This document shows, one piece after another, positions 11,937-26,402 of a DNA stretch of 43,495 nucleotides. Position 1 is the stretch's first letter. Each line of letters opens with the position of its first letter. The DNA is from Candidatus Nanopelagicales bacterium (GTDB lineage Bacteria > Actinomycetota > Actinomycetes > S36-B12). The translations under genes and the position numbers were made by a program. Location of the stretch: contig JAQTXL010000005.1 in NCBI GenBank assembly GCA_028688835.1, positions 1 through 43,495 on the forward strand, in the 5' to 3' direction. The notes beneath the pieces are model-generated. The model saw only the letters and a program-made list of their open reading frames with translations. It did no database searches and had not been told where the DNA came from.

Positions 11937-13553
11937 CTAGCCGTAGACCTTCGACCAGTCGTCGATGGTCATGAGGTAGATCTGGCCGCCCTCGATCGCG
12001 TCCTTGAGCGCCTGGGCCGAGGCCGGGTTCGCGGCGATGTCCGGGCGGGCCACTGCCGTCGGCGCATGCACCTGGGCGTTGAAGAAGAAGTAGCTCTTGG
12101 CGTCCTTGCCGTCGACCGCGAGGAACGGGGTCGCGTCGACCACGCCGCTGGACTCCTCATCGCGGGTCATGAGCTGGGCCCCACCCTTGGCGAAGTAGAG
12201 GTCCTTGAACCTGGCGACGGTGCCGACCTTGCCGTCGGAGATGCGGTAGGCGACGATCCGCGCCACGTGGTCGTTGTTGCCTGGATCCTCCTGGATCAGC
12301 AGGTTGCCCTTGGCGTCGATGGCCATGTTGTCCGGCTTGTTCATCATGATCGACTCCGAGCCGTCGAGCAGCATCTCGATCGTGGCACCGGCAGTGGGCC
12401 GGTTGACGTCCGCGAAGCGCACGCGCCACAGCGCCCCGCCGTCACGGGCAGCACCCGGGTACAGCGGATTGGCCGAGGTCGCCTTGGCGTCCTTATCGGA
12501 CTCCGTGGTCAGGAAGTAGTAGTCGTTGGGGTTCTTCGGATCGAAGGCCCCGTCCTCGACACGCGCGAGCACCGAGCCGGCCGCACGTGCCTGCTGGTTC
12601 TGGATCTTGCCGTTCTTGGTCCAGTCGATCTGGTTGAACGAGACGGGCACGGCCTTGCCCTTGCCCACCGCGGCGCGGAACAGGTTGTCATCGTTGTAGC
12701 CGTTGATGGCCATGACGTACAGGTTGCCGTTCGTGAGGCCGGCCTTGTCCACCCACGAACCGGCCGTGGTCTTGGTGCCCGCGTACATGAACAGCTGGCT
12801 GTCGGTGGCGTCGCCGTCCTCGTTGCCCATCACCACGGTCGTGGTGCCCTTGGGTGGAGCGACGATGAAGTTCTCCCAGGCCGCCAGGCCAAGCCGCGGC
12901 AGTTGGATCAGGTTGCCCGCGTTGTCGGACACGAAGCCTCGTGACTCGTCGCCACCCTCCTCGCCGGTGAAGTACGCGGGGCCGGTGTAGCCCACGGTCG
13001 TGGACTTGCCGTTCGCGTCGACCGACGAGTAGCTCAGCGTTCCCGGCTGGGCTGTGTACGAGGAGCAGAAGCGATTGAGCGCTGCCGTGTGGTTCGGCGT
13101 GCCGAAGCTGTCCTTGGCATCGGCCCCCGCGGGTGCGACCGGCTTGGTCGAGGTCTGCCCCGTCGAGTAGTCGTACCAGGTCACGCTCTTGAGCAGCTCG
13201 GTTCCGGCCACGATGGTGGCCGATGCGGTGTCGTAGTTGAACGCCGACACTGTCGATCCCGAGGCGGCGCCGCCTGCCCGCTTGGCAGCCGCGGCCACCG
13301 CGTTCGCGGCGGAGAGCTCATGGTTCATGAGCAGCGTCAGGTTGCGGCCATCCTGGAGGATGCCCATGCCATCGGGCACGCCCATCACCGTGTAGCCATT
13401 GAGGGAGTCGCCTGCAGTGGCCAGCACCTTCAGGCTCACACCCGAGGCGACGGGCTCCATGTAGGCGAAACCACTGTCGGCCTGCGCCGACGTGACTCCC
13501 AGCAGCACTGCGCCTGCAGCGACTGAGGCAGCGATTGGATATGCGATGCGCAC
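11937..13553 (-). CDS. Secreted PhoX/DUF839-like phosphatase family protein
   Basis: Sec-type signal peptide RIAYPIAASVAAGAVLLGVTSAQA; LLMNHELSA, GEEGGDESRGF and ENFIVAPPKGTTTVVMGNEDG consistent with the DUF839/PhoX family; GTG at 13553 preceded by GGAGG. Confidence 0.75.
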   Translation of the reverse strand: MRIAYPIAASVAAGAVLLGVTSAQADSGFAYMEPVASGVSLKVLATAGDSLNGYTVMGVPDGMGILQDGRNLTLLMNHELSAANAVAAAAKRAGGAASGSTVSAFNYDTASATIVAGTELLKSVTWYDYSTGQTSTKPVAPAGADAKDSFGTPNHTAALNRFCSSYTAQPGTLSYSSVDANGKSTTVGYTGPAYFTGEEGGDESRGFVSDNAGNLIQLPRLGLAAWENFIVAPPKGTTTVVMGNEDGDATDSQLFMYAGTKTTAGSWVDKAGLTNGNLYVMAINGYNDDNLFRAAVGKGKAVPVSFNQIDWTKNGKIQNQQARAAGSVLARVEDGAFDPKNPNDYYFLTTESDKDAKATSANPLYPGAARDGGALWRVRFADVNRPTAGATIEMLLDGSESIMMNKPDNMAIDAKGNLLIQEDPGNNDHVARIVAYRISDGKVGTVARFKDLYFAKGGAQLMTRDEESSGVVDATPFLAVDGKDAKSYFFFNAQVHAPTAVARPDIAANPASAQALKDAIEGGQIYLMTIDDWSKVYG

Positions 13554-13594
13554 TCTTCCTCCATTGATTGACGGGCGATCACCGGAGGGAACCA

Positions 13595-13627
13595 GTGCCC
13601 GGTGGCCGGGCGGCCACGAGCGGGCAC
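13595..13627 (-). promoter_or_regulatory. Stem-loop in the 5' region of the PhoX-like gene
   Basis: GTGCCCG-GTGGCC-GGGC-GGCCAC-gag-CGGGCAC: two stacked stems with a 3-nt bulge, about 40 nt upstream of the start. Confidence 0.5.
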
Positions 13628-13684
13628 CGTGGAGATGGCGATCGCATGTCAGGCAGAAGAAGATCGGTGAGCCAACAGGCAGCG

Positions 13685-13706
13685 CCGGAGTGACGCCCGG
13701 ATGAAC
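13685..13706 (-). promoter_or_regulatory. Candidate PHO box (PhoP operator)
   Basis: Minus strand GTTCATCCGGG-CGTCACTCCGG: two adjacent 11-nt units matching the Streptomyces PHO-box unit G(T/G)TCAYYYR(G/C)G at about 11/11 and 9/11, upstream of the PhoX-like gene. Confidence 0.45.
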
Positions 13707-13709
13707 GGT

Positions 13710-13733
13710 GCGGCAGGCGCGTTCACCTGCCGC
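13710..13733 (-). terminator. Stem-loop downstream of the carbamate kinase gene
   Basis: GCGGCAGG (13710-13717)/CCTGCCGC (13726-13733), 8-nt loop, just after the stop at 13749. Confidence 0.55.
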
Positions 13734-13748
13734 TCTCGCCGGGTTCAA

Positions 13749-14723
13749 CTAGTCGACGAGGCCCTCACTGCCGGGGACGATCCGGGTTCCGGCAGTCCCC
13801 CGCAACGCCTCGCGCACGAGCCCGATCGACGTGATGACGGCGTCGGAGCCGCACCCCGCGACATACGCGATCGCCGACTCGATCTTGGGGCCCATGGATC
13901 CGGGCGGGAAGTGACCTGCCTCGAGCAGCGTCTCCGCCTCGGCTGCCGTGATGACGTCAAGCGCCCGCTCGTGCGGTCCGCGGAAGTCGACGCACACGCG
14001 GTCGACGCCGGTGACGATCACCATGGCCGAGGTGCGCAGCTGCGCAGCAAGGAGCGCCGAGACGCGGTCCTTGTCGATGACCGCGTCGACCGGGACCAAG
14101 TCGTGGTCGAGCACCTGCACGGGGATGCCGCCGCCGCCTGCGGCGACCACGATCGCTCCGGCCTGCATGAGCGTTCGGATCGCATCGAGCTCGACCACCT
14201 CCAGCGGCGCCGGGCTCGCCACCACCCGCCGATAGCTGCCGGGGTCCTCCTCGTGCACGTCCCAGCCGTCGTCGACCACGTGCTGCATGGCCGTGGGTGC
14301 ATCGAGCCAGCTGCCGATGGGCTTGGTCGGGTGGCCGAAGGCCTCGTCGTCGATGTCGATGATGGTGTGCGTGAGCACGGCGGCCACCGGGTTCGCCAGG
14401 CCTCGCCGGCGCATCACGGCATTGAGCGCCACGGTGATGATGTGCCCGATCCCGCCCTGGGAGTCGGCGACGGCCAGCCACAGCGGCAGGTCGGGCAGTC
14501 GCTCGACGAGCGCGTCGGATGCGGCGAGCTCGCCGCGGCGCAGGATGAAGCCCACCTGCGGACCGTTGCCGTGCGTGATGATCGGGGTCCAGCCGTCCTG
14601 CACCAGGTCCGCGACGGTCTCGGCGAACTCGTGCGCCCGCGCTGACTGGATCGTGAGTGAGCCGCCCTCGCCCTCGTGGATCAGCGCATTGCCCCCGATC
14701 GCGATGAGCACCGTGCGACTCAT
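13749..14723 (-). CDS. Carbamate kinase
   Basis: VLIAIGGNALIHEGEGGS...PIITHGNGPQVGFILRRGEL...VVAAGGGGIPVQV: amino-acid-kinase/carbamate-kinase motifs. Confidence 0.93.
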   Translation of the reverse strand: MSRTVLIAIGGNALIHEGEGGSLTIQSARAHEFAETVADLVQDGWTPIITHGNGPQVGFILRRGELAASDALVERLPDLPLWLAVADSQGGIGHIITVALNAVMRRRGLANPVAAVLTHTIIDIDDEAFGHPTKPIGSWLDAPTAMQHVVDDGWDVHEEDPGSYRRVVASPAPLEVVELDAIRTLMQAGAIVVAAGGGGIPVQVLDHDLVPVDAVIDKDRVSALLAAQLRTSAMVIVTGVDRVCVDFRGPHERALDVITAAEAETLLEAGHFPPGSMGPKIESAIAYVAGCGSDAVITSIGLVREALRGTAGTRIVPGSEGLVD

Positions 14724-16099
14724 CGTGAGGCCTCCGCTCGCTCGCGCGCGGCAAGAGCGGCGATCGCGGCGCTGAAGACCTCAGCCGGTGCGGTGACGGT
14801 GCCCGCACCGATCTGCCCGACGCCGGCCTCCAGGTGCGCGATGCCCGTGTTGATCACCGGCAGCACGCCGGTCTCGACCACCTTGCGGGCATCGATGCCC
14901 GAGGGCGTGCCGACGAAGCCCAGGCCGGGAAGCTGGTAGACCGGATGCTCGGTGATCGTGATGCGACGCATCGAGCGCGTCGTTGCGATCGCATCGGCGA
15001 CCGTGCCGCCGACGAAGCGCGTGATCGCGGGCGCGGCAGCCATCGCGAAGCCGCCGAGGCCGAGCGTCTCGGTGATCGACGAGTCCCCGAGATCGGGATT
15101 GGCATGCTCGGGCCCGAAGCCGGAGAAGTACAGGCCCGTTGCCGGTCCGACAGGAGCGGTGAACCACTGCGCGCCCGTGCCGGCCGTGCGGATGCCGAAC
15201 TCCACGCCATTACGGCACATCACGGTCACCAGCGAGGAGTGCGCGACATCAGCTGCGGCATCCATGGAGAGCTTGGCGGCGGCCATCGAGATGTTGAGCG
15301 CGAAGTGGTCGTTCGCCGCGAGGAAGGACAGCGCTGCCGCGCCGTCGTCAAGCCTTGCGAGCTCGGGTGCCAGCCGTCGCGCGAGCAGTGAGGACGACGC
15401 GAGGTTGCGGTTGTGCCCCTCGTCGCCCATCGACAGCGCCTGGGCCACGAGCGTGGTGACGTCGACGGGCCCTCCTGTCTCGAGGGCCTGCGAGAGCACG
15501 GGGCCGAGCACCTCGCGCAGCCAGGCGAGCCGTCCGAGCACCTCGGCGTCGAAGGCGCCGAAGCGCAGCACCTTGCCCAGGCCCTCATTGAGTGTCGCGA
15601 AAGCCCGGCGCTCGCCGTCGCCGACCACGAGCACGGGCATCGACGGCGACACGACTCCCGCCATCGGGCCGACGGTTGCGTGGTCATGGCAGGGCGACAG
15701 CGTGATGCGCCCTGATCCCAGCAGTGCGCGCGCAGCCGACTCATCGGGCGCCCACCCCTCGAACAGGGTGGCACCGATGAGCGCCCCCTGCATCGGGCCG
15801 CACATGCGCGACCAGGCGATGGGCGGGCCTGCGTGCAGCAGGCCGTGATCGACGAGCCCGGGGACGACGTCGGAGGCGGGCCGCACGTCGAGCAGCTGGG
15901 GCCGGACCGCGTGCACGAGCGCCATGGCGCGGGCATTGGCCGCGTCGACCTCGGGCTCGGTCACGGTCATGAGATCGCGCGCCGCATCCGGATCACCCGA
16001 CCCCGGCGGGCGCCAGTCCAGGCGCAGGAGGTCGGCCTCCGGCACGGCATCGGTGATGAGCGCTGCGCCTGCGGCCACGACGCGCACCCCGCCGAGCAT
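14720..16099 (-). CDS. DUF1116 family protein (YlbE/AllG-like; putative oxamate/ureide carbamoyltransferase subunit)
   Basis: SRMCGPMQGALIGATLFEGWA, SPCHDHATVGPMAGVVSPSMPV and MGDEGHNRN are typical of DUF1116; next to fdrA-like and carbamate kinase genes. Confidence 0.8.
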   Translation of the reverse strand: MLGGVRVVAAGAALITDAVPEADLLRLDWRPPGSGDPDAARDLMTVTEPEVDAANARAMALVHAVRPQLLDVRPASDVVPGLVDHGLLHAGPPIAWSRMCGPMQGALIGATLFEGWAPDESAARALLGSGRITLSPCHDHATVGPMAGVVSPSMPVLVVGDGERRAFATLNEGLGKVLRFGAFDAEVLGRLAWLREVLGPVLSQALETGGPVDVTTLVAQALSMGDEGHNRNLASSSLLARRLAPELARLDDGAAALSFLAANDHFALNISMAAAKLSMDAAADVAHSSLVTVMCRNGVEFGIRTAGTGAQWFTAPVGPATGLYFSGFGPEHANPDLGDSSITETLGLGGFAMAAAPAITRFVGGTVADAIATTRSMRRITITEHPVYQLPGLGFVGTPSGIDARKVVETGVLPVINTGIAHLEAGVGQIGAGTVTAPAEVFSAAIAALAARERAEASR

Positions 16100-17574
16100 C
16101 AGGCACCTGCCTTGATGAGCTGGGCGGCGATCGACACGGCCGCCGCATTGCTCTCGCCGATGATGACGCCGGCCTCGATCAGCGTCTGCCGCTGCGCCTC
16201 CATGCCCTGCGGATCGCGCACGGTGCCGCAGATGCTCGCCACGACAGCCAGCACCCGGCCATCGCGCGCCGCACTGGCCTTGGCCCGTGCCACCGCTGCA
16301 GCGAGCGGGGTGGCCGGATCCGGGCTCGCGCCCAGGCCCAGCACGAGATCCACGAGCAGCACCCGGACTGAGGCGTCGCCGCCGGCTGTCTCAATGCGCT
16401 CGCAACGCAGGCTCGGATCGATCATGGGATGCGGACGACCGACCGTGAACTCGTCGTCGCCCAGATCGAGCACCTGCCCTTCGACCGCGAACTCGTGCAG
16501 CAGGTGCCGGGCCTCAGCAGCGAGCGTCCCACCGGCGTACAGCCCGAGCAGCCCAGATGCCGGCGCTGCGGGCATCACCTCAGGATCATGCGGCAGCACG
16601 AGCGGCACCTCTGCCCCGACCAGCCGCGCTGCGTAGGCGGCTGCGTCAGCGAGCGTCACCGCCACCACGGCGTTCGCGGTCGTCGCCTCGAGCTCACTGC
16701 CGATCAGGCAGATCACCACGGGCTTGGCGAGCGCGGCGACATGGGAGAGCAGCTTGGCGGCCACTGCAGGTGCCGGTGGCTTGCCCACGATGACGATGCA
16801 GTCCGTGTCGTCATCCCCCGCGAGCAGGTCGAGGGCAGCGCTCGTCATGATCCCGCCGACGGCGGCGCTCAGGTCACGTCCGCCGACCCCGATGACCTGG
16901 GACACCCCCACGCCGAGCGCGTCGAGCTGGCACATGACCTCCTGGGCGCCGGTGCCGGAGGCGGACACGATGCCCACCGGGCCTGTGGCCACGGCGTTGA
17001 CGAAGCCCAGCGGCACGCCGTCGACGAGCGACGTCCCGCAGTCCGGGCCCATGAGCAGGAGGTTGCGGCTCACCGCGAGCCGCTTGAGGGCGACCTCGTC
17101 GGCGATGTCGACATTGTCGGAGAAGCAGAAGACGTGCAGGCCGGCAAGCAGGCCCTGCTTCACGAGCAGGGGTGCGTAGGCCCCCGGCGTGGACACGGAC
17201 AGCAGGCTCGCATCCGGCATCGCGGCACAGCCCTCGATCACCGTGGCGGCCGGGATCTCGTCTCGCTGCTCGCTACTCCCGGTGTCAGGCGAGGACACAT
17301 GGTCACTCGCGAAGGCAAGCGCGCTCGCAGCGGCGTCGGCATCGGTTGTGCGCACGACGATGAGCAGGTCGTCCGGCGCGGCCACGACCGCATACGGCAG
17401 CATCCCGGCCGCCGCAAGGATCTCCAGGTTCGCTGGCGTGGCCATGACGACGCCAGCCCGCTCGACACCGGGCAGCTGCTGCAGCTGCGAGGCGAGCAGC
17501 ATGAGCGAGACCGAGTCGCGGTACATGCCCGGGAGCAGCAGGCTGTCGAGCCCGACCGACGTGGCACCGCTCAT
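16099..17574 (-). CDS. FdrA/AllF-like protein (acyl-CoA synthetase-like fold; putative carbamoyltransferase subunit)
   Basis: SVSTPGAYAPLLVKQGLLAGLHVFCFSDNVDIADEVALKRLAVSRNLLLMGPDCGTSLVDGVPLGFVNAV; start MSGATSVGLDSLLLPGMYRDSVSLM overlaps the upstream stop. Confidence 0.85.
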   Translation of the reverse strand: MSGATSVGLDSLLLPGMYRDSVSLMLLASQLQQLPGVERAGVVMATPANLEILAAAGMLPYAVVAAPDDLLIVVRTTDADAAASALAFASDHVSSPDTGSSEQRDEIPAATVIEGCAAMPDASLLSVSTPGAYAPLLVKQGLLAGLHVFCFSDNVDIADEVALKRLAVSRNLLLMGPDCGTSLVDGVPLGFVNAVATGPVGIVSASGTGAQEVMCQLDALGVGVSQVIGVGGRDLSAAVGGIMTSAALDLLAGDDDTDCIVIVGKPPAPAVAAKLLSHVAALAKPVVICLIGSELEATTANAVVAVTLADAAAYAARLVGAEVPLVLPHDPEVMPAAPASGLLGLYAGGTLAAEARHLLHEFAVEGQVLDLGDDEFTVGRPHPMIDPSLRCERIETAGGDASVRVLLVDLVLGLGASPDPATPLAAAVARAKASAARDGRVLAVVASICGTVRDPQGMEAQRQTLIEAGVIIGESNAAAVSIAAQLIKAGA

Positions 17575-18392
17575 GCGCTGCGACCTGCACGCACGGCGAG
17601 TGCATCGTGCGCGATCGCGGACAGGCCCCCGAGCATGCCGAGGGCCAGGTCCTGGCCGGACGTCGCGCCCCACGACTGCAGGACGTCCATGACCTCTGCG
17701 GTCTGGCGCACGTCAGTGAGCGCACCGGCCAGGCGATGCACGCGCTCGGAGAACCGGCCGCCCTCGGCAGCACGCAGGAACAGTCGCGATGACCGTGTGG
17801 TGCGATGTGCCAGGTCGACCGCGCAGGCGGCGACCTGCACCGATGCATCAGGCCGACCGCTCATGCGCAGGGCCGCGCATACGCCGACGAGGACGTCGTC
17901 ACCGGTCGGGGTGCTGCCAGCACCGCGGCCGACAAGGCTGCTCACCGCCGCCTCGACGCCATCACGGTCGCCGGCACAGGCATCATGCGCCAGCACTGCA
18001 GCCCTGGCCTTCCAGTCGAACTCGTGCCGCGCAGCCTCGCTGGCATCGAGGGTCGCCGCCGCGAGGCCTACAGCCGCGACATCGCAGCGCACCGCGCCGA
18101 GCTCGAGGCTCACGCGCTCGAACAACGACAGTGATCGCGCGTCAGTGGTGATGGTGAGCAGTGCACCAGCACGCTGCGAGGCCCACACCGGGTAGAGGTC
18201 CTCAGGCACGTGCAGGCCACCCGGCATGAGGCCAACTGCTCCTGTGGTGATCACGACGTCGTCCGCATGGAGCTCATAGGGACGCAGCACGACAGCGTGC
18301 TGGCCCACGTGCGCGACGATGAAGTCCGTGTCGTAGCTCGACAGCAGTGCTGACGCGGCGTCGATGCGAGGCATCACGGCAGACCCCCTCAT
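17571..18392 (-). CDS. DUF2877 family protein (YlbF/AllH-like)
   Basis: Glycine-rich motif GRGAGSTPTGDDVLVGVCAALR typical of DUF2877; ATG at 18392 overlaps the upstream permease stop (ATGA). Confidence 0.8.
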   Translation of the reverse strand: MRGSAVMPRIDAASALLSSYDTDFIVAHVGQHAVVLRPYELHADDVVITTGAVGLMPGGLHVPEDLYPVWASQRAGALLTITTDARSLSLFERVSLELGAVRCDVAAVGLAAATLDASEAARHEFDWKARAAVLAHDACAGDRDGVEAAVSSLVGRGAGSTPTGDDVLVGVCAALRMSGRPDASVQVAACAVDLAHRTTRSSRLFLRAAEGGRFSERVHRLAGALTDVRQTAEVMDVLQSWGATSGQDLALGMLGGLSAIAHDALAVRAGRSA

Positions 18393-19303
18393 GCTCGGGC
18401 GTTGTCGAAGACCTTGCGCAGCTCGGCCGGCGTCGAGTCCACCGCCCGGCGGCCCAGGAACACCAGCAGCACGAGCGTGAGCAGGAACGGGAGCATGTCG
18501 AGCGCGAACTGGTTGATCTCGTAGCCACGCGCCTGCAGCACTGGGCTCAGGGCAAGGGCGGAGCCGAACAGGTACGCGCCGCCGATGACCTTCAGCGGAT
18601 CCCAGGCCGCGAACACGACGAGTGCGACGGCGATGAACCCGCGACCGACGATCATGTTCTCGAACCACGACTGCGAGTACGCCACTGAGAGGTAGGCACC
18701 ACCGACGCCCGCGAAGATGCCGCCGGTCACCACGGCGATGTAGCGGACCTTGGCGATGCTGTAGCCGTTGACGGTCAGCACCTCGGCGCTCTCGCCCGCG
18801 GTGCGGAGCATCAGGCCGATCCGCGTCCTGAAGATCACGAACCACAGTGCAGGAGCGATGACGTACGAGAGGTACGTCAGGATGTTCTGGTCGAACAGGA
18901 CCGGGCCGAGGATCGGGATCGCCGAGAGCCCGGGGATCGCGATGGGATCGAAGCCGTTGATCTGCTGGCCGACGAAGCCCGAGCCGTACAGGGCGGTCAG
19001 CCCGAGGGCCAGGAACAGCAGCGACAGGCCGCTGGCGAACTGGTTCGACTTGCGGGTGACCACGAGGATCGCGTGGATGAGGGCCAGCGCGCCGCCCGCA
19101 GCGGCCGCCGCCAGGATTCCCAGCCACGGACTGCCCGTGAGCGAGGTGACCGCGAACCCGCTGAAGGCGCCCATGAGCATGCATCCCTCGGTGCCGAGGT
19201 TGATGACGCCCGAGCGCTCGCTCACCGTCTCACCGAGAGCGGCGTACATGATCGAGGTCCCGCCGCTCACTCCACCGCTGAGGATGTCGACGAAGATGTT
19301 CAT
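18389..19303 (-). CDS. ABC transporter permease (nucleoside/BMP type)
   Basis: [50 protein letters not shown]: YufQ-like permease signature. Confidence 0.9.
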   Translation of the reverse strand: MNIFVDILSGGVSGGTSIMYAALGETVSERSGVINLGTEGCMLMGAFSGFAVTSLTGSPWLGILAAAAAGGALALIHAILVVTRKSNQFASGLSLLFLALGLTALYGSGFVGQQINGFDPIAIPGLSAIPILGPVLFDQNILTYLSYVIAPALWFVIFRTRIGLMLRTAGESAEVLTVNGYSIAKVRYIAVVTGGIFAGVGGAYLSVAYSQSWFENMIVGRGFIAVALVVFAAWDPLKVIGGAYLFGSALALSPVLQARGYEINQFALDMLPFLLTLVLLVFLGRRAVDSTPAELRKVFDNARA

Positions 19304-20403
19304 GCGGATCCCTTCGACTTGCGCCATGGCATCTGGGTCCAGCCGAGCACGGCGATCAGCAGCAGGCCCGTGAGGATGTTGATGGTGGCCGCAGGCAGGT
19401 CGGAGTCGATCTGCAGGCTGTCACCGGACACGATGAGGATCGACAGCACGGTCGCCGACACGACCACGGCGAGCGGCCGATGACGTACCAGCCAGCTGGC
19501 CAGGAACGCGGTGTAGCCGATCGACGCCATGATCCCCGGGCGCAGCTGGAACTCGGTGCCCGCGTAGTAGAGCATCCCGCCGAGCCCGGCGAAGGCGCCG
19601 CCGAGCAGCATGGACGACATCAGCAGTGACGAGACCGGCATGCCCGCCCTTCGGGCCGCTTCGGGGTTTCCGCCGGCGACGGCGAGCTTGAAGCCCCAGC
19701 GGGTGAAGCGCAGCAGCGCCCACGTCAGGATCGCGGCGACGACGGCGATGATGATGCCGATGTTGACGGTGGAGCCCGGGAACATCGGCAGGTGCGCGTC
19801 GGCCTGCAGCGGCGGGCTCGCCGGCTGGCCGGTGCCGTTGGGGTCCTTCCACGGCTGGAAGATCAGGAACAGCAGCAGGTCCAGCGCGATGAAGTTCAGC
19901 AGGAGCGTGCCCACTGCCTCGTTCACCTGGGCCGTCACGCGCAGGAATGCGGCCAGGCCCGACCACAGCGCACCGGCGATCAGCCCGGCCAGCGCCATGA
20001 GCACGATGAGCACCGGTCCGGCCAGGCGACCATCGGAGACCTGGGCGACGCCGGCGGCAGCGACGGCGCCGATGAGCAGCTGCCCCTCGCCGCCGACATT
20101 CACGAGGCCAGCGCGGGCAGGCACGACCACTGCGAGGGCAGCCAGGATCATCGGGCCGGCCTTGACCAGCGCCTGCTGCATGGCGAACGGCGACTGGATC
20201 GTGTTCACCCATGCGTCGCTGAACACCGTGATCGGGTTCGACCCTCGCGTCATGATGAGGATGCTGAAGAACACGAGAGCAAGGGCGATGGCACCGACCC
20301 AGCGGCCGAGCACGCGCGCGAACTGCTCCATGCGCACGCTCGCCGGCGACGGACCGTCCTCGACGACGGTCACGAGCTCACCCGGCGGCGCGACGGTGCT
20401 CAC
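19300..20403 (-). CDS. ABC transporter permease (nucleoside/BMP type)
   Basis: [36 protein letters not shown]: YufP-like permease. Confidence 0.9.
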
Positions 20404-21917
20404 GCTGCACCCCCGAGCATCAGCTGGCCGATGGCGAAGCGATCAGTGTGTGCAGCATCGACGACTCCCATGATCTTCCCCTCATGCATCACGGCGATGC
20501 GGTCTGCGATCGACATGAGCTCATCGAGGTCCTCCGAGACCACGAGCACGCCCGCGCCCTCCGAAGCCCGCTCGATGAGCAGCTCCTGCGTCCGCTGGGT
20601 GTTGATGACGTCGAGCCCGCGCGACGGATACTCCGCGATGATCAGCGCCGCGTCGTCAGCGAAGACGCGCGTCAGGATCACGCGCTGGATGTTGCCGCCG
20701 GAGAGCGTCGACACCTTGCGGTCGATCGCCGCCATGCGCAGGCGCACGCGCTCGTTCGCGTCAGTCGTCCAGCGCCGGATGGCGGGCCAGTCGATGCCTG
20801 CGATGCCGCTCGGGATATCCACACCGCGCAAGGCCATGTGCTCGAGCACCGACATGTCACCCACCACGCTGTCCGCGACAGGATCCTCGGGAACGCCCAC
20901 GGCCCCTGCTGCCCGCGCCTGCGCGGGACTCGCGCCGATCTCCTTGCCTGCGATGCGCACGGTCCCGGCCGTCGCAGTCCGCAGGCCCAGGATCACCTCG
21001 CACAGCTCACGCTGGCCGCTCCCGGCGACTCCGGCGATGCCCAGCACCTCGCCTGCCCGCAGGCTCAGGCTCGCCTCGTGCACGGCCATCGCCCCGTGAT
21101 CGCCGTCAGCGCTCACGCCCGTCACCTCGAGCACGGTCGCGCCGTCCATCGCGAGGCCGGCCGATCGGCGCACTGGCGACACGTTGGAGCCGACCATGGC
21201 CACCACGAGGGCGGCGTCGTCGTACTGCCGAGGATCCTCGCCATCGAGGATCACCTTGCCGCCGCGCAGCACGGTCACGCGATCGGCGATGGCGCGGACC
21301 TCGGGGAGCTTGTGGGTCACGATGACCACGCCGTAGCCCTCGTCGCGTAGCGTGCGCAGCACCGCGAACAGGCCCTCGACCTCCTGTGGCGCGAGCACGC
21401 TCGTGGGCTCATCGAGAATGACGAGGCGGGCTCCGGTGAGCAGCACCTTGAGGATCTCCACGCGCTGCCGCTCGCCGATCGACAGGTGGCGCACGAGGGC
21501 TCCCGGGTGCACCGACAGGCCGAACTGCAGGCTCGCGGCCGAGATCTGGTCGCGCACGGCCTTCATGTTGAGGCGCTTGGTGCGCATCGCCAGCGCGATG
21601 TTCTCGGCGACGGTCAGTGCGGGCACGAGACGGAGGTCTTGGAACACCATGCCGATGCCGAGTGCGCGGGCTGTGAGCGGCGTCGCGATCACGACCTCGC
21701 GGTCCTCGAACATCATCTGGCCCTCGTCAGGGTGGTAGAGCCCGAAGATCATCTTGAGCAGCGTGGACTTGCCTGCTCCGTTCTCTCCGATCAGCGCGTG
21801 GATCTCGCCTGTCGTCACCGAGAAGTTCACCGCGTCGTTCGCGACGAGGTCACCGAATCTCTTGGTGCACCCGATCACGTCGAGGAGCGGCTGTCCGTGC
21901 ATCGCTTGTGCTGTCAC
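20400..21917 (-). CDS. ABC transporter ATP-binding protein with two nucleotide-binding domains (BMP type)
   Basis: Walker [15 protein letters not shown], signature [15 protein letters not shown], Walker B LVILDEPT; second NBD with [12 protein letters not shown] and LSGGNIQRV. Confidence 0.95.
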
Positions 21918-21970
21918 GTCGGCGGACGCTAGTGACGCAAGGTTTCCTGCTCATTCCCCATCATTACCAA

Positions 21971-22069
21971 TGCATTTCCGCATGTGCGGTGTTTCGATCG
22001 AATTGCCGGGTCGCGCACTCTGCCGGGAAATGCACACTTAACAAATCTCAGCACTGCGCGAAACACCGC
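21971..22069. promoter_or_regulatory. Divergent promoter region with interleaved inverted repeats
   Basis: TGCATTTCC (21971-21979)/GGAAATGCA (22026-22034) and GCGGTGTTTCG (21986-21996)/CGAAACACCGC (22059-22069), between the ATPase and BMP genes. Confidence 0.55.
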
Positions 22070-22153
22070 GCTCCTACATTCGCCGTCGAGTGCCTCGCAC
22101 TCAGTTCATCACCAGCAGACATGCGTGGTGTCTCACCATTGGAAAGGTTCCAG

Positions 22154-23338
22154 ATGCGCAGAATCCCCATTGTCGGCGCTGCCATTGCGGCAGCACTGAT
22201 CTTCGCCGGCTGCAGCAGCACCACGGACACGACGACTGAATCGACAGCACCGACCGAGGCGGCATCCACTGCAGCAGCAGGTTCTGGACCCGGCACAGGT
22301 GGATCGGCCATCGGCTTCATCTTCGTCGGCCCCAAGACCGACTACGGCTACAACCAGGCCGCCTACGAGGGCAGCCAGGCAGTCGCAGCGGCCTTCCCGG
22401 ACATGACCGTGCTCACGCAGGAGAACGTCCCCGAGGACGACAACGCCTACCGTGTCATGGAGGGCATGATCAGCCGCGGGGCCAAGATCCTGTTCGCCAC
22501 GAGCTACGGCCACCTGCAGGCTGCACAGAAGATCGCTGCCGCTCACCCCGATGTCGCAGTCGTGCAGCAGGGCAACTACATCTCGGACCCGAAGGCCATC
22601 ACGCCCAACATCGGCACCTACTTCGGCACCGTCTACGAGCCCGTCTACCTGGCTGGCATCGCAGCCGGCAAGGCGACGAAGTCGAACAAGCTCGGCTACA
22701 TCTACGCCTTCCCGATCCCGCAGACGGTGAACAACATCAACGCCTTCGAGCTCGGCGCGCAGTCGGTGAACCCGAAGGCCACGACCTCGACCATCAGCAC
22801 GTCGAGCTGGTGCGATCCGCAGAAGCAGAAGGCTGCGGTCGACAGCCTGCTCAAGCAGGGCGTGGATGTCATCACCCAGCACCAGGACTGCACGGACACG
22901 ATCATCAAGGCCACTGAGGCCGCCGGGGCCATGACCGTCGGCTACCACGCAGATGCATCGTCCCTGGCGCCGAAGGGCTGGCTCACCGGTTCGCAGTGGA
23001 ACTGGGCACCGCTCTATGAGGACATCGTGACCACGGCGCTCGCTGGCAAGTTCACCGGCAGCGAGTACAACGCGAACTTCCGCGTCGGCCTCCAGGACGG
23101 CAGCAACCCGTTCGAGCAGTCGCCGTACGGACCCACGGTCACCGACGACACGAAGACGACGATCTCCGCGGCACTCGACAACCTGTCGAGTCCTGGCGCG
23201 TCGGTCTTCACCGGCCCGATCAAGGACCAGTCGGGCAAGATCGTCGTTCCCGCAGGCACGTCGCTGCAGTACGGCGATCCGTCGATCGAGGGCATGAACT
23301 GGTTCGTCGAGGGCGTCAAGGGGAAGCTCGCACAGTGA
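22154..23338 (+). CDS. BMP family ABC transporter substrate-binding lipoprotein
   Basis: Lipobox MRRIPIVGAAIAAALIFAGCSS; IGFIFVGPKTDYGYNQAAYEG and NIGTYFGTVYEPVYLAGIAAGKATKSNKLGYI; GGAAAGG upstream of ATG 22154. Confidence 0.92.
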   Translation: MRRIPIVGAAIAAALIFAGCSSTTDTTTESTAPTEAASTAAAGSGPGTGGSAIGFIFVGPKTDYGYNQAAYEGSQAVAAAFPDMTVLTQENVPEDDNAYRVMEGMISRGAKILFATSYGHLQAAQKIAAAHPDVAVVQQGNYISDPKAITPNIGTYFGTVYEPVYLAGIAAGKATKSNKLGYIYAFPIPQTVNNINAFELGAQSVNPKATTSTISTSSWCDPQKQKAAVDSLLKQGVDVITQHQDCTDTIIKATEAAGAMTVGYHADASSLAPKGWLTGSQWNWAPLYEDIVTTALAGKFTGSEYNANFRVGLQDGSNPFEQSPYGPTVTDDTKTTISAALDNLSSPGASVFTGPIKDQSGKIVVPAGTSLQYGDPSIEGMNWFVEGVKGKLAQ

Positions 23339-23985
23339 CCCACGATCCCAGGCCAGCGCCCGCGACAGGGACGACTGCCGCACGACCAGTCCAGCTGGTC
23401 GACGGCACGACCCCCTATCCCTGGCCATTCGATGAGCAGCTCGACGCCGCAAGGCTCGCACTGGTCATCGTGATGCCGAGCGGGCCTGCGCCTGGGATCA
23501 CCCTCGACGACGGTGCTGCGGCACTGGCCGCCATCACTGAACTCGCGCTCGCGGTGGAGGCGTACAGCGCCCTGGTGCTGCACGTCTCCACCGCAGGACC
23601 ACTGGTGCGACGGGGGCCCGTCACAGGCACCAGCGGAACAGCTGTGGGCGGCGATTCCTGGTCGCCGCCCACAGCGCTCCCCTACTCCGCGCAGCACCTG
23701 TCGTCGGCGGGCATCGATGGCTTCTTCGGCAGCCAGCTCGACGTGACCCTGCAGCGCGCCAGGATCACCCACCTGCTGCTGGCCGGGCTCCCGGTCGAGA
23801 CCGCCGTGCACTCGACCATGCGCGATGCGAACGACCAGGGGTACGAGTGCCTGCTGGTGCGCGACGCGACCGCGGCCCTGGATTCCGCACTCCTGGACAA
23901 CACCATCTCGATGATCGAGATGTCGGGCGGGATCTTCGGCGCCGTCGGCACCCGCGCCGCCGTCATCGCCGCCCTCACCCGCTGA
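23335..23985 (+). CDS. Isochorismatase-fold protein lacking the catalytic triad (predicted pseudoenzyme)
   Basis: Aligns with the next ORF (PYPWPFDEQLDAARLALV; LDVTLQRARITHLLLAGLPVETAVHSTMRDANDQGYECLL), but catalytic Asp, Lys and Cys positions read Met, Ile and Ala. GTGA overlap with the BMP gene. Confidence 0.8.
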   Translation: MTHDPRPAPATGTTAARPVQLVDGTTPYPWPFDEQLDAARLALVIVMPSGPAPGITLDDGAAALAAITELALAVEAYSALVLHVSTAGPLVRRGPVTGTSGTAVGGDSWSPPTALPYSAQHLSSAGIDGFFGSQLDVTLQRARITHLLLAGLPVETAVHSTMRDANDQGYECLLVRDATAALDSALLDNTISMIEMSGGIFGAVGTRAAVIAALTR

Positions 23986-24009
23986 CCACGCCACACCACT
24001 GGAGGATCC

Positions 24010-24717
24010 ATGCCCCTGTTCGCTCAGGTCGACGCAGAGCCGTACACCTGGCCCTATGACGGAGCCATCGATGCCAGCACCACGGCGCTGGTCTGCATCG
24101 ACTGGCAGGTCGACTTCTGCGGGCCCGGCGGATACGTCGACGCCATGGGCTACGACCTGAACCTCACCCGCGCCGGCCTGGAGCCGACGGCAGCAGTCCT
24201 GGCGGCAGCGAGGGCCGCAGGGCTGACCGTGGTGCACACGCGCGAGGGCCATCGTCCCGATCTCTCCGACTGCCCCCCGAACAAGCTCTGGCGCTCGGCT
24301 CGCATCGGGGCAGCGATCGGCGACACCGGCCCCTGCGGCCGCATCCTGGTCCGCGGCGAGCCCGGATGGGAGATCGTCCCTGAGGTGGCACCCATCGAGG
24401 GTGAGCTCATCATCGACAAGCCCGGCAAGGGCGCCTTCTACGCGACGGATCTCGACCTCCTGCTGCGCACCCGCGGCATCACGCACCTGATCTTCACCGG
24501 CATCACCACGGACGTGTGCGTGCACACCACGATGCGTGAGGCCAATGACCGCGGCTACGAGTGCCTCCTGCTCACCGACTGCACGGGGGCCACCGACACG
24601 GGCAACTACGCAGCAGCGCTGAAGATGGTGACGATGCAGGGCGGCGTCTTCGGCGCCATCGCTCCCTCGTCAGCGCTGCTTGCCGCCCTCAGCACGCCGG
24701 CAAGCGTCGATGCATGA
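24010..24717 (+). CDS. Isochorismatase-family cysteine hydrolase, biuret amidohydrolase/RutB-like
   Basis: Catalytic motifs intact: [19 protein letters not shown] (Asp), [14 protein letters not shown] (Lys), [27 protein letters not shown] (Cys). Adjacent to allophanate hydrolase. Confidence 0.85.
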
Positions 24718-26402
24718 GCGTTGACGCACGGTCGGCTCAGCTGGCGGCGAAGCAGGCGCACGAGCTCAGCCAGCACGCCTTCATCAGCATCCTGGAGCCC
24801 GCGCGCATCGCTGAGCTTGCGGCCTCTGCCGGTGACGGCCCCCTCGCCGGAATGCCGTTCGCAGTCAAGGACAACATCGACGTCGCGGGCGTGCCCACGA
24901 CCGCGGCCTGCCCGGCGCTGGACGCTCCAGCGCCTGAGCACGCCCATGTGGTCGCCCGGCTGATCGCAGCCGGGGCGATCCCCGTCGCCAAGACGAACAT
25001 GGACCAGTTCGCCACGGGGCTGGTCGGCACCCGCTCGCCGTACGGTGCCTGCCACAGCGTCTACTCCCCCGATCACGTCAGCGGTGGCAGCAGCAGCGGC
25101 AGCGCGGTCGCCGTGGCCTCCGGTGTCGTCCCCCTGGCCCTCGGCACGGACACCGCAGGCAGTGGGCGTGTCCCGGCCGCGTTCAACGGCCTCGTCGGGA
25201 TGAAGCCGTCGCGCGGGCTGGTCTCCAACACAGGGTTGCTGCCGGCCTGCCCGTCACTCGACTGCATCACGACCTTCACCACGACGGTCACCCAGGCAGC
25301 GGCCGTCTTCGACGTCGTCGTCGGCTACGACGCAGCCGACCCGTACTCGCGCCCGATGCCGCCTGCGCTGCCAGCAGGAGTCGCTCGACACATGCGCGTC
25401 ATCGCCGTTCCCGCAGGGCCCCTTGCACTCGACCCGGAGCACGAGCAGGCGTGGCAGCAGGCGCTCGCGCACGCTGCGACGGTTGCACTGCTCGTGCCGG
25501 TCGACATCGAGCCCTTCCTGGCAGCAGCCCGGCTGCTCTACGAGGCCCCGTTCGTGTCCGAGCGCACCGCGGCCTTCGGAGCCCTGCTCGAGCCCGATGG
25601 CCCGCACCTGGACCCGACCGTGCGCTCGATCGTGCTGCGTGGAGCCGAGTTCACGGCGGCGCAGTCCTTCGCAGCTGCGCATGAGCTCGCCCGGCTGCGA
25701 CGGCTGACTGAGGCTGCGTTCGTCAGCGCCGACGCACTGCTGCTGCCGGTGACCCCGTGGCACCCGACACTCGCGCAGGTCGCCGCTGATCCCATCGGTG
25801 CGAACTCGTGCAACGGGGTCTTCACGAACATGACCAACCTGCTCGACCTGTGCGCCATCGCCCTGCCAGCTGGTGAGCGAGCCGACGGCCTGCCCTTCGG
25901 GATCCAGCTGCTGGCACCGGCCTTCGGCGATGTGCCCCTGCTCGAGCTCGCCGCGACCTGGACAGGCGAGCGCGTGATGGACGCGTGGGCTCCCGAGCCG
26001 CATCGCACCCTCGTGGCTGTCGCCGGAGCGCACCTCAGCGGACAGCCGGCGAACCCGCAGCTCATCGGTCTCGGCGGACACCTGCACGCACGTGCCCGCA
26101 CGGCAGCGGGCTATCGGATGTACACCGTGCCGGGCCCGTTCCCGCGCCCAGGCCTCATCGGCACCGGTGACGGACCGAGCACGGGCATCGAGATCGAGGT
26201 GTGGAGCCTGCCCACGGTGACCATCGATCAGCTCGTGGCGACCATCGCGCCACCGCTCCTGCTCGGCCCGCTCGAACTCGACGACGGGACCACCGTGCTG
26301 GGATTCATCGCCGAGCCGGGTGCGGCCGATCCAGCCAGGGACATCACGGACTTCGGGGGATGGCGAGCGTTCGTGACCGCGCGTGAGCGCCTCCAGCGTT
26401 GA
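24714..26402 (+). CDS. atzF: Allophanate hydrolase (AtzF type, amidase domain plus C-terminal domain)
   Basis: Amidase Lys-Ser-Ser: [59 protein letters not shown]-terminal [33 protein letters not shown]...IEVWSLP matches the allophanate hydrolase C-domain. Confidence 0.9.

Follow-up and report, generated by a model that had tools for sequence, protein, structure and literature searches.

A divergent biuret-type island in a Candidatus Nanopelagicales genome and a possible role of AllFGH and carbamate kinase in acylurea phosphorolysis

Introduction

What does an oxamic transcarbamylase module do beside an operon for the hydrolysis of biuret? The question is raised by an island at positions 13749–26402 of a 43,495-nucleotide stretch of contig JAQTXL010000005.1 (the window, meaning that whole stretch) from a Candidatus Nanopelagicales bacterium (assembly GCA_028688835.1; 2.34 Mb, 96.7% complete). 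One strand carries the three subunits AllF, AllG and AllH (together AllFGH), a carbamate kinase, and the ATPase and two permeases of an ATP-binding cassette (ABC) importer; the other carries a BMP-type binding lipoprotein, a biuret amidohydrolase (BiuH) preceded by a BiuH-like gene, and the allophanate hydrolase AtzF. We propose, with a probability of about 0.45, that the island serves the scavenging of nitrogen from biuret and triuret, and that AllFGH and carbamate kinase phosphorolyse an acylurea, either triuret or carboxybiuret, and not imported oxalurate. The gene families and the two-arm divergent layout had been named in an initial annotation of this DNA, and both are borne out: according to the list of open reading frames (coordinates and strands) and profile searches against cut-offs, every family lies where it had been placed, with the three AllFGH subunits adjacent (PF06545, NF004760 and PF11392).

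Proposed pathway

In the scheme that we favor, the BMP-type ABC importer would take up a planar polymer of urea, with biuret as the likeliest candidate and triuret as a possible one. BiuH would convert biuret to allophanate and NH3, and AtzF would convert allophanate to NH3 and CO2. AllFGH, in turn, would phosphorolyse an N-acylurea (R-CO-NH-CO-NH2 plus phosphate giving R-CO-NH2 plus carbamoyl phosphate), and carbamate kinase would use the carbamoyl phosphate to yield ATP, NH3 and CO2. Two acylureas suggest themselves from gene context and chemistry: triuret, which would give biuret, the substrate of BiuH, and 1-carboxybiuret, which would give allophanate, the substrate of AtzF. Since the product of AllFGH would be biuret or allophanate, both arms would feed one line.

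Phosphorolysis of triuret or carboxybiuret fits the island better than conversion of biuret to urea or the use of endogenous oxalurate, because urease, urea carboxylase and the AllD family (Ldh_2, ureidoglycolate dehydrogenase) are all absent from the source genome and two congeners. Phosphorolysis of biuret to urea is unlikely here, given the same lack of urease and urea carboxylase. The initial annotation had found neither urease nor allantoin-pathway partners in the island; the first of these absences extends to the three genomes, as does that of the AllD family, and no allantoin or ureidoglycolate genes lie within the island, unlike the linkage in Escherichia coli. Its suspicion that AllFGH acts here on a substrate other than the E. 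coli one appears, from this context, to have been right.

The hydrolytic arm and its importer

The hydrolytic arm formed by BiuH and AtzF is well supported at the sequence level, both proteins scoring above curated profile cut-offs. The best match of BiuH in the PDB is RhdBiuH (6xjm, 416 bits), a biuret hydrolase of solved structure with a slow additional activity on triuret (PMC7948467). When the active-site residues described for BiuH (PMC5806882) are located in the alignment, all of them (D, Q, F, K, K, T, C and Q) are kept, including the Asp-Lys-Cys triad, Lys145 and Gln215. AtzF has both its amidase and its C-terminal domain and passes the equivalog cut-off. No second active isochorismatase-fold enzyme that could serve as the triuret hydrolase TrtA was found in the island, which holds one active copy only.

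The BMP protein is related, by PDB match, to AtzT, a protein that binds 2-hydroxyatrazine and guanine (PMC6834077). Mapping the AtzT pocket onto 64 BMPs of biuret operons from Actinomycetota, Nitrospirota, Paenibacillus, Proteobacteria and Chloroflexota reveals the pattern Y-S-[YF]-Q-N-W-H-D in 61 of them, the island protein reading YSYQNWHD. The full pattern occurs neither in AtzT nor in 3s99, nor in any of 17 other actinobacterial BMP matches, one of which (L252) is a single position off. Because the pattern is identical with and without AllFGH, the ligand of the importer probably follows BiuH and not AllFGH.

Distribution and neighbors of AllFGH

AllG was found in 49 of the 397 genomes of a phylum sample and is enriched with BiuH-like genes (6/11 versus 29/285 genomes, Fisher p 0.0005). 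The biuret-linked AllGs fall into three groups on the AllG tree, which requires three label changes, only one of them forced by its starred branches; this suggests that AllFGH may have been recruited independently to biuret loci. Co-occurrence of the two arms in other genomes, which the initial annotation had singled out for a neighborhood check, is indeed observed, AllFGH adjoining hydrolases of the BiuH/TrtA type in congeners, in other Actinomycetota, in one metagenome-assembled genome of Chloroflexota and in Nitrospirota of the complete ammonia oxidizer (comammox) type, where the ammonia monooxygenase family was present in 12 of the 17 genomes tested. In these comammox-type loci the genes form one block, AllHFG-carbamate kinase-BMP-permease-permease-BiuH-ATPase-TrtA-like-AH_C. 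In most of the loci fetched (L234–L246), the gene after the TrtA-like one encodes a lone AH_C domain and not a full AtzF, which L247 does encode, and published atzF calls in such loci may need checking. More generally, taking AtzF matches in AllG loci as allophanate hydrolases proved wrong for many of them, as they comprise the AH_C domain alone or the amidase domain alone. In one locus (L082:10214–11626), carbamate kinase and an AH_C domain form a single fusion protein, whose gene adjoins AllF-AllG and a TrtA-like gene, while in L080 the two are encoded separately.

Across these and other loci, three sets of AllFGH neighbors have in common that their product is an N-acylurea: oxalurate for AllD in E. 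coli, carboxybiuret for the TrtA-like enzymes, and carboxybiuret or ureidomalonate for the AtzD/barbiturase family, ring-opening enzymes that accompany AllFGH and carbamate kinase, along with an NCS2 permease and a molybdenum hydroxylase, in other actinobacteria.

Alternative readings

Several observations weigh against triuret or carboxybiuret as the substrate. AllG is 53% identical over 407 residues to E. coli AllG, and oxalurate is the only substrate proven for AllFGH (PMC11326118); oxalurate could also be imported. The island has no gene for TrtA or AtzD, which leaves the action of BiuH on triuret as the source of carboxybiuret, a reaction that its relative RhdBiuH carries out slowly (PMC7948467). 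The AtzD/barbiturase family had no match in the three congeneric genomes either, in a search run without a positive control. Furthermore, AllG is absent from 24 of 29 genomes with the importer-paralogue-BiuH operon; biuret can therefore be used without AllFGH, the hydrolytic arm working alone. Nor does this count lend support to the idea, put forward in the initial annotation, that the two arms divide a single imported ureide between them.

The alternative that best survives holds that two separate products of purine breakdown are scavenged, biuret by BiuH and AtzF, and imported oxalurate by AllFGH and carbamate kinase to give oxamate, CO2, NH3 and ATP. We consider it rather doubtful, yet it draws on the proven activity just mentioned, on the identity of AllG and AllF (41%) to their E. 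coli counterparts, and on the fact that such two-product scavenging has been put forward for comammox bacteria and ammonia-oxidizing archaea (AOA) (PMC12625717). It is countered by the absence of the ureidoglycolate dehydrogenase family from the three genomes and of allantoin genes from the island, by the oxamate that would be left over, which in E. coli is a dead end (PMC11326118), and by an importer pocket that tracks BiuH and not AllFGH. Moreover, E. coli AllG and the biuret-linked AllGs occupy separate regions of the tree, and the fusion of carbamate kinase to AH_C also speaks against oxalurate.

It is unlikely that AllFGH serves another acylurea, such as ureidomalonate from pyrimidines, and stands beside the biuret operon only as part of a co-controlled set of nitrogen-scavenging genes. 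This possibility is raised by AllFGH-carbamate kinase operons elsewhere (L086, L089, L095, L096, L097 and L113, and also L088) with an NCS2 permease and an AtzD/barbiturase-family enzyme, often together with a molybdenum hydroxylase, an amidase and HyuA/HyuB, which look like operons for pyrimidine or cyanuric acid breakdown. However, none of these partner genes is found in the island, the missing AtzD/barbiturase family is a further, weak negative, and the two arms have one divergent region and one site in common in three genomes.

A catalytically dead paralogue of BiuH

The initial annotation had listed two isochorismatase-fold genes, of which the second stands as BiuH, above the profile cut-off, while the first turned out to be a dead paralogue. 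This gene (23335–23985) scores 101 bits on the biuret amidohydrolase profile, against a cut-off of 370, and in the alignment the positions of Asp36, Lys142, Lys145, Cys175 and Gln215 read M, S, I, A and S; with the catalytic Asp, Lys and Cys lost, it is, judging by its residues, not a working BiuH. A scan of genome contigs and relatives yielded a family of 34 members from many actinobacterial families, located between bmp and biuH wherever the flank suffices, sometimes with one extra gene in between. Lys142, Lys145 and Gln215 are substituted in all 34; one member retains Asp36 and six retain Cys175, while the BiuH adjoining each dead paralogue keeps its catalytic residues. At the position of Gln215, a residue that in BiuH is donated to the active site of the neighboring subunit (PMC5806882), the paralogues always have Ser, inside an invariant MSGGIFG motif. 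They form one clade with full support in the Shimodaira–Hasegawa-like approximate likelihood ratio test (SH-aLRT), albeit with long branches, and the AlphaFold model of the island protein (predicted local distance difference test, pLDDT, 90.9) has BiuH (6xjm) and TrtA as its best fold matches. The clade has lost its catalytic residues, yet is under purifying selection. That the gene is a functionless, decaying duplicate is very improbable: its catalytic residues are all gone and its sequence diverges more quickly than that of BiuH (59% identity within the genus, compared with 87%), but its reading frame is open and its operon position constant across 34 genomes that span many families of actinobacteria, the paralogues make up a single clade with invariant motifs, and the ratio of nonsynonymous to synonymous substitution rates (dN/dS) within the genus is 0.09–0.30. 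Instead, the paralogue is probably a partner subunit of BiuH or a regulator.

In Candidatus Manganitrophus (L150:9980–10678), the first BiuH-like copy has the Asp and the Lys, but Ala in place of Cys and Ser in place of Gln, which may represent an intermediate or a parallel loss, and the second copy is broken by frameshifts in the record. The suggestion that the trtA of comammox bacteria is the same dead paralogue was ruled out, since both active sites are kept in 12 of 12 fully readable two-copy loci of Nitrospirota. In the openly licensed literature, nothing was found that links biuret to a pseudoenzyme, nor were the dead-paralogue clade, the carbamate kinase-AH_C fusion, the pocket signature or the link between AllFGH and ring-opening enzymes; as far as could be found, the dead BiuH paralogue is undescribed.

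Layout of the island

The genes are tightly packed (Table 1), with overlaps of a few bases at most junctions, several of them of 4 bases. Better starts than those first annotated were assigned to AllF (17574), AllH (about 18374, chosen by comparison with the relatives L076 and L077) and AtzF (24714). The divergent intergenic region measures about 235 bases in L076 and L077 too. The whole island is lodged inside a ribosomal protein cluster (window 9619–30731), with secY/adk/map on one side and infA-rpsM-rpsK-rpsD on the other. Two of the eight congeneric genomes sampled have AllG, and both carry the whole island in the same order at the same site of the ribosomal cluster. Between the island and infA lies a putative DUF839/PhoX-like protein with a signal-like N-terminus (window 11937–13748, minus strand).

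Table 1. Predicted features of the island, with window coordinates.
Feature	Position	Strand	Evidence
Carbamate kinase (AllK-like)	13749..14723	-	NF009007 308 bits (cut-off 266); 37% identity to E. coli YbcF
AllG subunit (DUF1116)	14720..16099	-	PF06545 285 bits (cut-off 27); solved homologue 3clq
AllF subunit (FdrA, succinyl-CoA-synthetase fold)	16099..17574	-	NF004760 439 bits (cut-off 433); solved homologue 3dmy FdrA
AllH subunit (DUF2877)	17571..18374	-	PF11392 81 bits (cut-off 25); 31% identity to E. coli AllH
ABC permease 1 (BPD_transp_2)	18389..19327	-	PF02653
ABC permease 2 (BPD_transp_2)	19300..20403	-	PF02653
ABC ATPase	20400..21917	-	PF00005
Intergenic region separating the two divergent operons	21918..22156		between ATPase and BMP starts
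BMP-type substrate-binding lipoprotein	22157..23338	+	PF02608; nearest solved relatives AtzT 6pi5 and 3s99
Catalytically dead BiuH paralogue (predicted pseudoenzyme)	23335..23985	+	overlaps bmp stop by 4 bases (GTGA)
Biuret amidohydrolase BiuH, active site intact	24010..24717	+	NF050097 421 bits (cut-off 370)
Allophanate hydrolase AtzF	24714..26402	+	TIGR02713 622 bits (cut-off 511); PF01425 amidase + PF21986 AH_C

Significance and comparison with known systems

Biuret, triuret and cyanuric acid reach soils via urea fertilizer and herbicides. Taken together, and tentatively, AllFGH and carbamate kinase might constitute a general module for N-acylurea phosphorolysis, giving carboxybiuret or triuret a third, ATP-yielding fate besides decarboxylation and deamination by AtzE, and actinobacterial BiuH might form a heteromeric enzyme or a sensor with its conserved dead paralogue. 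If AllFGH does phosphorolyse such acylureas, ATP would be gained where hydrolysis alone had been assumed, "oxamic transcarbamylase", the name used in E. coli, would no longer cover the full activity, and the annotations of nitrifiers and actinobacteria would change.

The gene combination itself is not new, as it is already published for comammox bacteria and, in part, for AOA: comammox Nitrospira are reported to combine biuH, atzF, bmpA-nupABC and allFGHK, and AOA to combine biuH with allFGHK (PMC12625717). It was recovered here in comammox-type genomes in agreement with that report, except for the AtzF call. Like the island, those clusters bring together biuH, allFGHK and a BMP-type ABC importer on a single contig, without upstream purine genes. 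The comammox-type loci, however, have an active TrtA-like gene and mostly AH_C alone, whereas the island has a full AtzF, no TrtA and the dead BiuH paralogue. With the allFGH-allK module of E. coli (PMC11326118, PMC9843812) the island has all four genes in common, but that module adjoins allC, allD and allE, none of which the island has. The TrtA-BiuH-AtzF operons of Herbaspirillum and Rhizobium (PMC7948467) have the BiuH and AtzF chemistry in common with the island, which lacks TrtA and adds a phosphorolytic arm. In Rhodococcus sp. Mel, the closest solved BiuH (RhdBiuH) lies together with AtzD (PMC7948467), unlike the BiuH of the island. Finally, AtzT (6pi5, PMC6834077) has the same BMP fold, and its aromatic sandwich, Tyr45/Trp194, is kept in the island protein, in which Glu165 is changed to Gln, Asn218 to His and Asn220 to Asp.

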